Assembly (NCBI GenBank): GCA_016933155.1
Contig: JAFGBM010000006.1
Location: forward strand, 1 to 64,000
Origin: Demequinaceae bacterium
Lineage (GTDB): Bacteria; Actinomycetota; Actinomycetes; Actinomycetales; Demequinaceae
Reading direction: 5' to 3'
DNA length: 64,000 bases
The position numbers were made by a program, and so were the translations under genes. The notes under the pieces were generated by a model. The model searched no databases and was not told the origin of the DNA. It was given only the letters and a program-made list of their open reading frames with translations. The stretch's first letter is position 1. Every line of letters begins with the position of its first letter. Positions 53,746 to 59,113 of this stretch are shown piece after piece.

Positions 53746-53852
53746 GCAACATCGACAACACAGGTTGTTCTGCGATGGGATGATGATCACGTGCGATCAC
53801 TCAGTCGGCGTCTGAGCCTTTCTGCGTTGGGTTGTCGGAGGGAGGTTGGTTG

Positions 53853-54986
53853 GTGCTCCAAATCACCCACCTCACATTGAGGAACTGGAAAAACTTCGGC
53901 AAGGTAGATGTTGATTTGCAGCCACGAACGTTTCTTGTTGGTCCGAATGCGGTAGGTAAGTCGAACTTCCTGGACTCGATTCGCTTTCTTCACGATCTTG
54001 CGAGTGTCGGAGGCGGTCTTCAGGCAGCAGTCGCGGCAAGAGGAAGCGTCGGCCGGTTGCGAAGTCTTGTTGCGCGGAAATACCCCGACGTTGTGATTGA
54101 AGTCAGCATCGAGGATAGAGAACCCGGAAGATCCTGGCGCTATCGCCTTGCTTTCGCTGGATCGGAAACCGCGAGGATCAAAGAGGAGGAAGTCTGGGAA
54201 GGAAATCGAAAAGTCCTTTCGAGACCGGATAACAAGGACGCTCAAGATCCTGAGCGTCTCGCGCAGACTGCACTTGAGCAGGTTACGTTCAACAGAGAGT
54301 TCAGAGAAATCGCTGAGTTTCTTGCCTCGGTGAGCTATCTACATTTGGTACCTCAACTCATCCGTGAGCCAGATCGTAGTATTGCTCACCGGAACGATCC
54401 CTATGGAGGAGACTTCCTGGATCGAGTTGCGCGAGTGAACAAGAGGACTCGAGAAGCAAGGCTCCGAAGAATAGAAAAGGCGCTCAGAGCTGCGGTCCCC
54501 CAGTTGTCAGAGCTTCGACTTGAGCAAGACACAAGGGGGGCTTTCCATCTCGAGGGCAGATACCAGAACTGGAGGCCGTACGGAGCGAGGCAGGACGAGA
54601 CTGTCTTCAGTGATGGGACGCTTAGATTGATTGGGTTGCTGTGGGCTATTGCTGATGGAGAGGCTCCGCTCCTCCTGGAGGAACCCGAGTTATCTCTTCA
54701 TCCAGATGTTGTCCGCCAGATCCCGTTGATGTTGACACGAGTCACAAGAAGTCCAGCGGGTCAGCGCCAGGTGATTTTGAGTACGCATTCGATGGATTTG
54801 ATCGATGATGAGGGAATTGGTCTTGATGAAGTGCTCTTGCTGCAACCCGAAGATGGGGGGACATCCGTCAAACCGATGTCCCAGGATTCTGAGGCTGGGT
54901 GGCTGTTACAAGGGGGTTCTAGAGTGTCCGAAGTCGTTCGGCCTCGGACTCGTCCTGACTCACCTGAGCAGATTGCACTTTTCTAG
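53853..54986 (+). CDS. ABC/AAA-type ATPase of a putative defence system
   Basis: 377 aa from GTG 53853, seven bases after GGAGGGAGG; the in-frame TTG 53832 lies before that site. It is an OLD/RecF-like ATPase (AAA_21/AAA_15 group): N-terminal ITHLTLRNWKNFGKVDVDLQ, Walker A GPNAVGKSN (30-38), ABC signature-like FSDGTLRLIGLLW (252-264), Walker B with D-loop PLLLEEPELSLHP (272-284) and switch histidine in ILSTHS (318-323). The TOPRIM domain of OLD proteins is absent but encoded by the next gene. GC content is visibly lower (45% over 54301-54360, against 70% over 52501-52560), suggesting acquisition. Proposed role: sensor and motor of an anti-phage pair. Confidence 0.88.
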   Translation: MLQITHLTLRNWKNFGKVDVDLQPRTFLVGPNAVGKSNFLDSIRFLHDLASVGGGLQAAVAARGSVGRLRSLVARKYPDVVIEVSIEDREPGRSWRYRLAFAGSETARIKEEEVWEGNRKVLSRPDNKDAQDPERLAQTALEQVTFNREFREIAEFLASVSYLHLVPQLIREPDRSIAHRNDPYGGDFLDRVARVNKRTREARLRRIEKALRAAVPQLSELRLEQDTRGAFHLEGRYQNWRPYGARQDETVFSDGTLRLIGLLWAIADGEAPLLLEEPELSLHPDVVRQIPLMLTRVTRSPAGQRQVILSTHSMDLIDDEGIGLDEVLLLQPEDGGTSVKPMSQDSEAGWLLQGGSRVSEVVRPRTRPDSPEQIALF

Positions 54987-54989
54987 ACA

Positions 54990-55604
54990 ATGGATGCCAA
55001 CGGTGTCACCGTCGCTTTTGAGGGGGAAAGCGATCGGGGCATGGTGAGCCGACTTGTCCAAGAGTTGGGTATCAAGGTGGGTATCTCCTATTGCTGTGAT
55101 GGGCAGCCGAATCTATTCAGGAGGCTTCCAGGATTCAACTGCGCTGCGAGCAGATCAGTTTGGTTTGTATTCACGGATCTGGATGCAGAGTCATGTGCGC
55201 CCGATTTGGTATCCAGAGTGCTGCCGAGTCCATCAAACGGGATGGCCCTGCGTGTGGCTGTAAGAGCCACCGAGGCCTGGCTTCTTGCTGACAGGGAGAA
55301 GATGGCGGAGTGGCTAGGTGTTCGTCTCGGGTTGGTGCCAAGAGAACCGGACAGTCTAGACAACCCGAAACTTAGACTCGTCGATCTCGCCAGACAATCC
55401 CGACACCGATCACTTCAAAGTCAGCTTGTGCCATCGAGGAACAGCGGTCGCCCTGTTGGACCTGGGTACACGACGGAAATCAACCTATTTGCCCAAAAGC
55501 GCTGGAGACCCAACGTGGCCGCTCTCGTTTCTCCAAGCTTGGATCGGGCAATACGGAGCATGCGTAAGAAACTTGAGGACAGCGGAACGGAACTGTCGAA
55601 CTAG
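54990..55604 (+). CDS. TOPRIM/DUF4276-like protein, probable effector
   Basis: 204 aa, starting three bases after the ATPase gene. TOPRIM-type motifs are visible: the acidic FEGESD (residues 10-15) after the first strand and FTDLDAES (61-68) after the third. The block ATEAWLLADREKMAEWLGV (93 onward) resembles the E-x-W-L-L-A-D motif of DUF4276 proteins. No signal peptide or membrane segment is present. In related two-gene systems (OLD-like, PARIS, Abi-type) the TOPRIM partner is a nuclease released or activated by the ATPase. That activity is inferred here. Low GC like its partner. Confidence 0.85.
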   Translation: MDANGVTVAFEGESDRGMVSRLVQELGIKVGISYCCDGQPNLFRRLPGFNCAASRSVWFVFTDLDAESCAPDLVSRVLPSPSNGMALRVAVRATEAWLLADREKMAEWLGVRLGLVPREPDSLDNPKLRLVDLARQSRHRSLQSQLVPSRNSGRPVGPGYTTEINLFAQKRWRPNVAALVSPSLDRAIRSMRKKLEDSGTELSN

Positions 55605-56814: not shown

Positions 56815-57522
56815 ATGAACCGAAGCGAGCGCCTGTTCGCGATCGCCGAGGACCTGCGCCACGCCCACGGACGCCAGCGCACCACGTCGCAGCTGGCCGA
56901 GGCGTTCGAAGTGTCGCAGCGCACGATCAAGCGCGACATGGCCGCGCTGTACGCGTCGGGAGTGCCGCTCGTGGCGGTCGAGGGCCGCGGCGGCGGATAC
57001 CAGATGCTTAGGGAGACGCACCTCTCCCCCGTGCCGCTGACGGCGGGCGAAGCCGCGGCCGTGGTGATCGCGCTCGCGTCCCAGCCGCAGATGCCGTACA
57101 ACACCGAGGGGCGGTCGGCTCTTGCCAAGATGTATGCCGCCATGTCGCCCGACCAGCGCGCCATGGCCGACGACGCCGCGAGCCGCGTATGGATGCGCAC
57201 CGACGCGTCGTCCAAACGCCCTCCCAACGCCGCCGTGCTCGACGACGCGCTGCGACGCAAGGTCGCGGTCACAATCGCCTACGCCGACGCGGACGGCAAC
57301 GAGTCCCGCAGGCTCATCGAACCCATGGCGTTCGCGCGCACGGGAGGCCACTGGTATTGCCTCGCGTGGTGTCACCTGCGTGGCGACGGCCGATGGTTCC
57401 GCCTGGACCGCGTGCGCCGGGCTTGGCCCACCACCACCCCTTGCGCGCCGCGGGATCTCACCGAGGTTTTCGGCGAGCCGCCACCCGACGCGATGCCGGC
57501 CACGCGCGTGCTGAGCACCTGA
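56815..57522 (+). CDS. WYL-domain transcriptional regulator (YafY-type)
   Basis: 235 aa. An N-terminal HTH (TTSQLAEAFEVSQRTIKRDM, about 24-43) is followed by GRGGGYQM and a WYL domain (about 135-215) in which the namesake residues read HWYCLAWCHLRGDGRWFRLDR. WYL domains sense small molecules or nucleotides; here the divergent hydrolase suggests regulation of a detoxifying or catabolic step. WYL regulators also occur with defence genes, but the distance and separate repeats make that link uncertain. Confidence 0.9.
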   Translation: MNRSERLFAIAEDLRHAHGRQRTTSQLAEAFEVSQRTIKRDMAALYASGVPLVAVEGRGGGYQMLRETHLSPVPLTAGEAAAVVIALASQPQMPYNTEGRSALAKMYAAMSPDQRAMADDAASRVWMRTDASSKRPPNAAVLDDALRRKVAVTIAYADADGNESRRLIEPMAFARTGGHWYCLAWCHLRGDGRWFRLDRVRRAWPTTTPCAPRDLTEVFGEPPPDAMPATRVLST

Positions 57523-57729: not shown

Positions 57730-57759
57730 TTGACATGAGCGGAGGAGCCTCGGTACGGT
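57730..57759 (+). promoter_or_regulatory. Promoter upstream of the NYN gene
   Basis: TTGACA (57730-57735) and TACGGT (57754-57759) with an 18-base spacer; start expected near 57766. Confidence 0.65.
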
Positions 57760-57771
57760 CGTCTCATAACT

Positions 57772-57805
57772 CCCTGCCGTCCTCCGGGACTGGCAGGGCT
57801 TTTTT
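57772..57805 (+). terminator. Intrinsic terminator/attenuator in front of the NYN gene
   Basis: CCCTGCC and GTCC (57772-57782) pair with GGAC and GGCAGGG (57787-57798, one bulged T) around a TCCG loop, followed by six Ts. It is the only classical T-run terminator in the window. It lies between the promoter and the start codon, 12 bases before the gene, so a transcript from the promoter would be about 40 nt unless the terminator is read through. Confidence 0.75.
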
Positions 57806-57817
57806 CCCGGACATGTG

Positions 57818-58414
57818 ATGGCCGGCAAGACGCGCAAGGTTGCGCTTGTCGTCGACTACCAGAACATCCACCTGGTGGGTCACGGGCTGTTCTACGGTGA
57901 CGGTCGGCCCAAACACGAGACGCTCATTGAACCGGGGCGCTTCGCGGATCGAGTCCTGGAACGGCGGGCTGCCGACTGGCGCGAAGATCCGCCGCCCGAT
58001 GACGTGCTGCACAGCGTGTACGTCTACCGCGGCCAGCCAAGCAACCGGGTCGATCCCGTCGCCTACGCGCGCAACCAGGCACAGGCGGCACAGTGGACGC
58101 GTGACAACCGCGTAATCGTCCAGCATCGTCCCCTGACCTATCGGGACGATGTGGTGCACGAGAAGGGCATCGACGTGCTCGTGGCCCTCAAGTTCGTGGA
58201 GCTCGCGATGAGCTCGGTCTACGACGTGGTGATCCTATGCAGCCACGACAGCGACCTGGACCCCGCCGTCGAGCACGCCATCCGTCGAGGAAGCTGCAAG
58301 ATCGAGACTGCAGGCTGGATGGGGGCATATGTGCCCAAAGGCGGAAAGAGCCTGTGGCACACGGGCTTGGACGCTGATGACTTCGACGCCTGTCGGGATC
58401 CGCGCCAGTACTAG
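57818..58414 (+). CDS. NYN-domain (PIN-like) putative RNase
   Basis: 198 aa from ATG 57818; a GTG at 57815 is directly before it and no ribosome-binding site is seen. The acidic residues of the NYN/LabA-like fold are visible: Asp13 in LVVDYQNIH, Asp119 in EKGIDVLVAL, and Asp144/146/148 in CSHDSDLDPAV. Such proteins are metal-dependent nucleases or RNA-binding factors. A terminator sits in the leader, suggesting conditional expression. The gene stands alone. Confidence 0.87.
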   Translation: MAGKTRKVALVVDYQNIHLVGHGLFYGDGRPKHETLIEPGRFADRVLERRAADWREDPPPDDVLHSVYVYRGQPSNRVDPVAYARNQAQAAQWTRDNRVIVQHRPLTYRDDVVHEKGIDVLVALKFVELAMSSVYDVVILCSHDSDLDPAVEHAIRRGSCKIETAGWMGAYVPKGGKSLWHTGLDADDFDACRDPRQY

Positions 58415-58441: not shown

Positions 58442-59113
58442 GTGGCAAGGTGGGGAACCGTGGATATCGGCGTGCTGACCGTCGTCGCAGCCAGTCTTGT
58501 TGCGATGTCTGTGGTCGCCTGGTACCGGGTGATCGCCCGTCACGACGAGACCGAGGGGCGCGGCTTTCGCGTCGGGGTCGCGGGTATGCTTTCCGTCCTG
58601 GCGTTCATCGCCGGGTATTTCGAGGTCTCTCACCATCTCCGCCAGCAGCTCGCCACCGAGGCGCTCGGAGTCCTGTCCGACGTCGACGGGATCAGCGCCG
58701 ACTGCGAGCGACTCACCGAGGGCCTTCTCAACCTCAGCCAGTACCAGGGCTACGTCTACTTCGATGGAACCAACGTCGCCCACCTCAGACGGCAGGTCTG
58801 CCACAACCTGTGGGACTACGCCCACGGTGGCCAGGCGAACCCCACCGAGGATCAGATCCTCGCGGTGCACGTCGTGGGGCACGAGGCCATGCACATCAAC
58901 GGCATCCGCACGGAGTCGGTCGCCGAGTGCACGGCCGTGCAACTCAACCACCTCATCGCCGAGGAGCTCGGGGCGACACCGGAGGAGGCCCGGGAATTGC
59001 AGCGGCGATACTTCGAGGATCTCTACCCGCGCCAGCGCAGCAACTACATCTCGAGCGAGTGCCGCGAGGGGGGCGACCTCGACATCTTTCCCGACCGGAC
59101 CGAGTTCCCCTAG
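58442..59113 (+). CDS. Membrane-anchored protein with HExxH metalloprotease-like motif
   Basis: 223 aa from GTG 58442; GTG 58460 (MDIGVLTVV) with AAGGTGGGG upstream is an alternative. Two membrane segments (about 8-30 and 43-60) precede a soluble domain. HEAMHINGIRTE (147-158) contains HExxH, followed by ESVAECTAVQ, so His147, Glu148, His151 and an acidic residue could form a zinc site. The pattern resembles the metzincin core HExxHxxGxxH with Thr in the third-histidine position. No known family is assigned; catalytic activity is unproven. Confidence 0.78.
   Translation: MARWGTVDIGVLTVVAASLVAMSVVAWYRVIARHDETEGRGFRVGVAGMLSVLAFIAGYFEVSHHLRQQLATEALGVLSDVDGISADCERLTEGLLNLSQYQGYVYFDGTNVAHLRRQVCHNLWDYAHGGQANPTEDQILAVHVVGHEAMHINGIRTESVAECTAVQLNHLIAEELGATPEEARELQRRYFEDLYPRQRSNYISSECREGGDLDIFPDRTEFP

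Follow-up and report, generated by a model that had tools for sequence, protein, structure and literature searches.

The window, that is, the whole stretch of 64,000 nucleotides of a Demequinaceae genome analysed here, contains a gene for a NYN-domain nuclease that is directly preceded by a promoter and a bulged terminator hairpin. Sequence comparison indicates that this layout is conserved, that the hairpin stem covaries and is inherited together with the NYN gene, and that the unit has a scattered, mobile distribution. We consider it somewhat probable that hairpin RNA and nuclease form a two-part unit resembling a minimal type III toxin–antitoxin (TA) system, in which the RNA inhibits the NYN protein and phages copy the hairpin. 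The elements concerned are the following.

57730..57735, + strand: -35 element TTGACA, recognized from the sequence.
57754..57759, + strand: -10 element TACGGT, located at -18 from the stem and a weak match when taken alone.
57766..57805, + strand: predicted RNA of ~40 nt, composed of AUAACU, the bulged hairpin, C and U6, based on a covariance model and conserved leader bases.
57772..57798, + strand: terminator hairpin with a 7-bp lower and a 4-bp upper stem, a UCCG loop and a bulged U57791, based on fold and covariation.
57800..57805, + strand: terminator U-run, from the sequence; a U-rich tail is also present in the aligned leaders.
57815..58414, + strand: NYN-domain nuclease gene (Pfam NYN), starting with GTG 57815 or ATG 57818.

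A preliminary description of the locus had reported TTGACA-N18-TACGGT with a start near 57766, followed by a hairpin and T6 that end at 57805, 12 bases before the start codon. These coordinates proved right for the promoter, whose TANNNT at -18 and A at -6 recur in other leaders, and also for the terminator, the codon being ATG 57818. The two promoter elements are separated by an 18-nt spacer, and the predicted start, A57766, lies 6 nt before the stem. The 11 bp of the stem are formed by 57772-57782 and 57787-57798 around the UCCG loop at 57783-57786 (CCCTGCC-GTCC-TCCG-GGAC-T-GGCAGGG, followed by C57799). The folding energy of the hairpin is -21.8 kcal/mol (z -5.2), none of 200 shuffled sequences being equally stable, and covariance model R1 scores the stretch 57764-57808 with 64.1 bits.

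A consensus scanner applied to the window sequence reported neither the NYN promoter nor the terminator. This is because TACGGT matches TATAAT at only three of six positions and because the terminator rule of the scanner does not permit a bulge; elsewhere the scanner found one promoter-like site, against 1.4 expected. By itself the window promoter is near chance, and the case that can be made from this single site, which proves little, is moderate; it is the comparison with other loci that makes the promoter strong. Searching with the single sequence revealed no close relatives. A riboswitch or another known RNA was rejected as a candidate because no relevant Rfam covariance model matched the window stretch or four of its relatives.

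The surroundings of the unit are described here for completeness. An AAA ATPase gene (53832-54986) and its partner (54990-55604) are strong matches to PADLOC HEC-01A and HEC-01B (1e-148 and 3e-56), and this candidate defence pair precedes the NYN unit by 2.2 kb. The protein encoded at 58442-59113 has no Pfam match; it contains an HEAMH stretch resembling the HExxH metalloprotease motif and is 71% identical to its counterpart in a sister genome.

Terminator and NYN gene start were matched in other families (G042, G054) when related genomes were searched with DNA. A protein alignment of six NYN sequences (A1) then yielded 80 loci in genome records and four in viral contigs. Together with the window and three paralogues, 83 of these 84 loci (L077 begins inside the gene) provide 87 NYN genes, and a hairpin lies upstream of 83 of the 87, mostly in actinobacteria, near-copies being included in this count (L064/L065, L102/L105, L049/L110, L074/L076). 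The scan accounted for 82 of the hairpins; that of L098, whose NYN gene contains a run of N, was added by the covariance model. Planctomycetota (L082), Chloroflexi (L094, L103) and Acidobacteria (L106) are represented among the loci as well, in part by metagenome bins. Two tandem hairpins in front of one NYN gene were seen at L061 (2727-2771 and 2859-2903), the only such case among the NYN loci read.

After removal of duplicates from the 82 leaders, 79 distinct ones remained for comparison of the promoters. Measured from the stem, TANNNT is positioned exactly at -18 in 38 of them and at -19 in 14 more, compared with a single-position maximum of 7 in 500 shuffles. TTG is found at -42/-41 in 39 of the 79, position -6 is A in 45 and position -7 is C or T in 70; the window's own elements are located at -42, -18 and -6. 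A promoter so regularly spaced relative to the stem leads one to expect a transcript that starts 6 nt before the stem and ends ~40 nt later. The distance between hairpin and start codon is mostly 20–28 nt, often including a Shine-Dalgarno stretch, and is so short that it offers no place for a second promoter. This arrangement would yield the ~40-nt RNA as its predominant product, with the nuclease translated from read-through transcripts.

Both had been anticipated, the lack of room for another promoter as well as expression solely by read-through, and they gain support from the conserved promoter and from plasmid loci L166, L167 and L168, where the upstream gene is on the opposite strand. The orientation of these three genes also disfavours transcription from the upstream WYL gene, which had been named as a finding that would speak against the model; inspection of the sequence led us to reject it as the normal route, given that the WYL gene of the window ends at 57522 and that the NYN gene has a conserved promoter of its own. 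We also rejected a riboswitch or attenuator working with an antiterminator. The predicted start precedes the stem by only 6 nt, too few for an antiterminator to form, and classical attenuation of this kind does not stand.

On eight plasmid stretches, only one of 70 other annotated gene starts has a terminator-like hairpin within 60 nt upstream, as opposed to five of the eight NYN starts, which were tested in the same way. In a wider set of 80 NYN genes 73 were positive, with three start offsets allowed instead of the single one used for the controls. Based on this control, on the fold z value and on the covariation described below, a chance hairpin was rejected.

The shape of the hairpin was compared in alignment A3, which comprises 48 leaders of equal length without gaps, of which 47 distinct rows were used for pairing. 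All 11 pairs are kept in these 47 sequences (517 of 517 cells are standard pairs) and in eight of the 11 both partners have changed. No shuffle out of 500 reached the observed value, and slid controls paired to at most 62%. The bulged position is U in all 48 rows. The loops include UCCG, UACG, UUCG, GCAA and GAAA, which are UNCG and GNRA tetraloops. Two size classes exist, which follow the protein phylogeny: hairpins of 31–55 nt are found in all 13 hairpin-bearing rows of one NYN protein clade, and hairpins of 25–29 nt in 65 of the 69 rows outside it. Even the long-stem variants retain GU...AC-U next to the lower stem. Conservation of the terminator together with a bulge and flanks for which termination has no need argues for a discrete RNA that is recognized by something; judged from these patterns, the NYN protein encoded in cis is the partner pointed to. 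Such recognition is expected under autoregulation and under antitoxin action alike. The earlier suggestion that the short transcript may itself matter is strengthened by the covarying stem, the invariant bulge and the conserved 5' nucleotides. Mimicry of a host RNA was rejected, as the core CCGTCCTCCGGGACTGG (up to 3 mismatches) occurred 20 and 21 times on the two strands of its own genome, compared with 14 and 19 times for the reversed control.

The window gene product, a protein of 200 residues, appears from its sequence to be a NYN (PIN-like) nuclease. It matches Pfam NYN above the cutoff (8e-10), and D13, N16, D119, D144 and D146 are invariant in 50 relatives. An AlphaFold model of the protein (pLDDT 95.9) has VPA0982, the MARF1 NYN domain and KHNYN as its closest solved folds, and Regnase was also matched. 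On the basis of modelled fold and catalytic residues the protein is predicted to be an endoribonuclease. NYN proteins that share only 30–48% identity with that of the window are still accompanied by the same hairpin core. Seven relatives have no hairpin and nevertheless possess intact catalytic residues (L043, L059, L083, L085, L170, L171, L173), from which it follows that the nuclease can exist without the hairpin.

Several of these features would suit an autoregulatory leader, a function that the preliminary description had proposed. In such a scheme the NYN protein would bind or cleave the hairpin on its own transcript, thereby increase termination or destroy the mRNA and keep its own level low, and the 40-nt RNA would otherwise have no task. 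The position of the hairpin in cis before 83 of 87 NYN genes, a conservation of bulge and stem that exceeds what termination needs, and the way in which the hairpin class tracks the protein clade all agree with it. In addition, several RNases control themselves via their own leaders. What speaks for an inhibitory RNA rather than for such a leader is the occurrence of the hairpin where the gene is missing, both in bacteria and in phages.

Among 396 genomes of the order, 17 possess NYN genes of this kind, the source genome being one of them, as do 26 of 394 genomes of the class; at E up to 1e-15 none was found in a further 36 genomes from the source genome's family (G001-G036). The hairpin was detected in 32 of the 396 genomes of the order (E up to 0.01), several of the weak matches resembling ordinary terminators or a CRISPR repeat. 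NYN also occurs in 12 plasmid records and four viral contigs, and the covariance model located the hairpin at five of eight plasmid NYN loci read. Three further NYN genes are arranged in tandem on another contig of the source genome (L028 2753-5202, G000:C1), each preceded by a separate promoter and long-stem hairpin. By this pattern of occurrence, the NYN–hairpin unit is scattered and mobile between bacteria.

Comparison of bacterial loci also revealed hairpins that apparently remained after loss of the gene. A class-level draw contained 41 strong hairpins, 20 of which adjoin an NYN match and 21 of which do not, and most of the latter belong to one family (f36) of Frankia-type genomes. An NYN HMM run on 27 class-level loci found NYN or a fragment thereof at 21 and none at six. 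At nine Frankia-type loci, which include the near-copies L188 and L190, promoter and hairpin are kept and most or all of NYN is gone. Breakpoints are located after the first codons (L188, L190, L200) or within the gene (L198; L090, position 7693); in L195 the deletion extends from upstream of the start codon through to the C-terminus. Seven of the nine hairpins are identical to a 27-nt consensus, one differs at one position and one at four. Early stops in NYN next to good hairpins were noted at L060, L063, L064, L081, L090 and L091, where errors in draft sequence are possible. That the gene is often lost while the RNA survives would fit a costly toxin and its antidote. Alternatively, solitary hairpins may be remnants of recent loss that are free of selection and still undecayed. 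At L146 (G154) a solitary hairpin is followed by a pair of genes whose products, judged by eye, look like a regulator of the excisionase type and a PIN-like protein.

Phage sequences likewise contain the hairpin, by all appearances without the NYN gene. BLASTN with two leaders retrieved 14 and 7 INPHARED records, 16 in total, and every host is actinobacterial. Microbacterium phage Footloose, Gordonia phage Holliday and Mycobacterium phage Krypton555 are examples of phages with the hairpin. By contrast, tblastn with three NYN queries against the 50,697 INPHARED entries gave no match, and a control hairpin with swapped stem pairs and the same loop, bulge and U-run matched no INPHARED phage. The eight INPHARED loci that were read score 31–57 bits under the covariance model and retain the bulged U without exception; paired changes are seen in Gordonia phages (GUCA/UGAC) and in Krypton555 (GCCGACC/GGUCGGC). 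A pattern scan of IMG/VR returned 86 stretches, of which 80 were scored and all 80, representing 40 distinct sequences, match the model. Because the bulge T and the majority of stem positions were prescribed by the pattern, these sequences are uninformative with respect to the bulge; informative are the free R/Y positions at columns 13/31, whose agreement is broken in none of 45. Only one of the 80 hairpin-bearing viral stretches (L271) has an NYN HMM match; the stretches are parts of contigs, which may carry NYN elsewhere.

Many viral hairpins sit between structural genes, where they could serve as terminators, and the hairpin of Clavibacter phage CN1A is annotated as such. By inspection, the 5' UAGCU flank is retained at many of these structural-gene sites, and a promoter of the NYN type was not seen there. 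Others are found near phage tRNA genes (L323, L324, L329, L238, L288, L248, L246, L237) and may function as terminator of a tRNA operon or in counter-defence. A short-stem and a long-stem hairpin are close together in viral L309 (1306-1377) and L312 (3173-3542); searching phages with the long-stem class gave weak matches only (E 0.08), within terminase genes. Gordonia phages L325, L326 and L330 have in common a second non-coding stretch, starting from CCCGCTACCGGGAT, downstream of the hairpin.

We infer from these data how an RNA-inhibited nuclease might operate, including transcription and termination, nuclease activity, RNA–protein binding, inhibition, trigger and decoy role. RNA polymerase would start at A57766 and mostly stop at 57805, releasing an RNA of ~40 nt in which single-stranded AUAACU at the 5' end is followed by the hairpin, with its fixed bulged U, and by a U-tail. 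The smaller share of transcripts that reads through would be translated into the NYN nuclease, leaving the RNA in excess of the protein. The RNA would bind the nuclease and, acting as antitoxin, keep it inactive; it may additionally damp its own read-through. Once the short-lived RNA is lost, for instance when a phage shuts off host transcription, the nuclease would be freed and attack RNA. The hairpin copies of phages that infect the same hosts would act as decoys.

An antitoxin is favoured over autoregulation because the hairpins survive gene loss and occur in phages. A leader that serves only its own gene leaves unexplained why promoter–hairpin units outlast deletion of NYN, and why phages that have no NYN carry the hairpin. 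We therefore regard autoregulation as plausible in itself, yet rather unlikely as the full account, an RNA inhibitor being the better explanation for these two groups of hairpins. The observation on which the preliminary description was built is confirmed, and its interpretation is partly supported.

A plain attenuator, that is a strong terminator which silences a costly nuclease gene, with the likeness among leaders due to descent and to selection for termination, is improbable. The U-run and the GC-rich stem found everywhere are what it predicts, and the scattered gene looks as if it had spread horizontally together with its leader. However, termination should suffer from a bulge of one nucleotide, and still this position is U in 48 of 48 rows; the 5' flank and the GU...AC beside the bulge are conserved; the hairpin core is common to loci whose proteins are 30–48% identical to that of the window; double changes affect eight of 11 pairs; and no phage relative was found for the control hairpin in which the stem pairs are swapped and loop, bulge and U-run are unchanged. 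Very improbable is a recognition element, whereby the nuclease would target or sense this hairpin in RNA of phages, its own leader serving as a mock target that occupies the enzyme until phage RNA competes: the hairpin does occur in phage transcripts between structural genes and next to tRNA genes, but phages should lose a target and instead have kept it with paired changes (Gordonia phages, Krypton555).

The preferred model of an inhibitory RNA has precedents in ToxIN, AbiF and AvcID (PMC5086642, PMC12373285, PMC10511110). Type III TA loci (ToxIN, CptIN, TenpIN) are described as having one promoter, an RNA, a Rho-independent terminator and a promoterless ribonuclease gene (PMC5086642), and the NYN locus, as read from its sequence, likewise presents promoter, RNA, terminator and a gene without its own promoter. 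The RNA unit of the ToxIN family is given as 34–36 nt, compared with about 40 nt at the NYN locus, and type III systems are reported to be similarly scattered and also plasmid-borne (PMC5086642). Phage TE provides a known case of an RNA that mimics ToxI (PMC3475682). In contrast to the tandem repeats of classical type III RNAs, that of the NYN locus is a single bulged hairpin: one unit precedes the window gene, and pairs were found only at L061 and in viral L309 and L312. No pseudoknot of the classical type III kind is predicted for it, and the RNA, which is its own terminator, would not need processing, unlike type III TA RNAs. The protein adopts a NYN/PIN fold and not that of ToxN, judging from the fold matches of the model. 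Because tandem repeats and the ToxN fold are absent, we consider the NYN unit type-III-like and do not assign it as a member.

AbiF/RCd22 of Clostridioides difficile shows the same order of promoter, small RNA, terminator, ribosome-binding site and promoterless gene, and RCd22 was shown by its authors to be an RNA antitoxin that inhibits the AbiF protein directly (PMC12373285). According to the same report RCd22 is about 88-132 nt long, with two motifs and a separate terminator, as compared with ~40 nt for the NYN-locus RNA, and AbiF is tied to Cas13 ancestors rather than to NYN (PMC12373285). The authors of AvcID class it as type III, and the term 'repeat' is absent from the part of their text that was searched; its toxin is a deaminase and, unlike at the NYN locus, the authors predict that no terminator separates the RNA from the gene (PMC10511110). 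A CRISPR-associated ribonuclease of Bacteroides fragilis belongs to the same NYN family, stands in a defence context and was demonstrated to cleave ssRNA in a Mn-dependent manner (PMC11346440). It acts with type III CRISPR, and the portions of the paper at hand describe no leader hairpin (PMC11346440). PADLOC HEC-09 shares a weak local match of low score with NYN proteins (1e-6 to 1e-8, about 43-74 residues), which is partial (model positions about 97-168 of 203) and comes from a library of protein models only that is silent on RNA. A literature search of titles and beginnings of abstracts found no NYN protein paired as toxin with an RNA antitoxin.

With more reserve than for the two-part unit itself, it is tempting to speculate that these loci represent a family of NYN nucleases, hitherto undescribed, that are inhibited by RNA, with the terminator serving as antitoxin at the same time, and that actinobacterial phages counter them with RNA decoys, either single or as pairs of the two specificity classes (L309, L312). 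If true, a PIN-like nuclease class would be added to the RNA-inhibited toxins, together with a very small RNA design that consists of start, hairpin and stop and is devoid of repeats and processing. It would further predict an anti-phage system of actinobacteria, and it would extend RNA mimicry beyond laboratory escape mutants to many natural phages.
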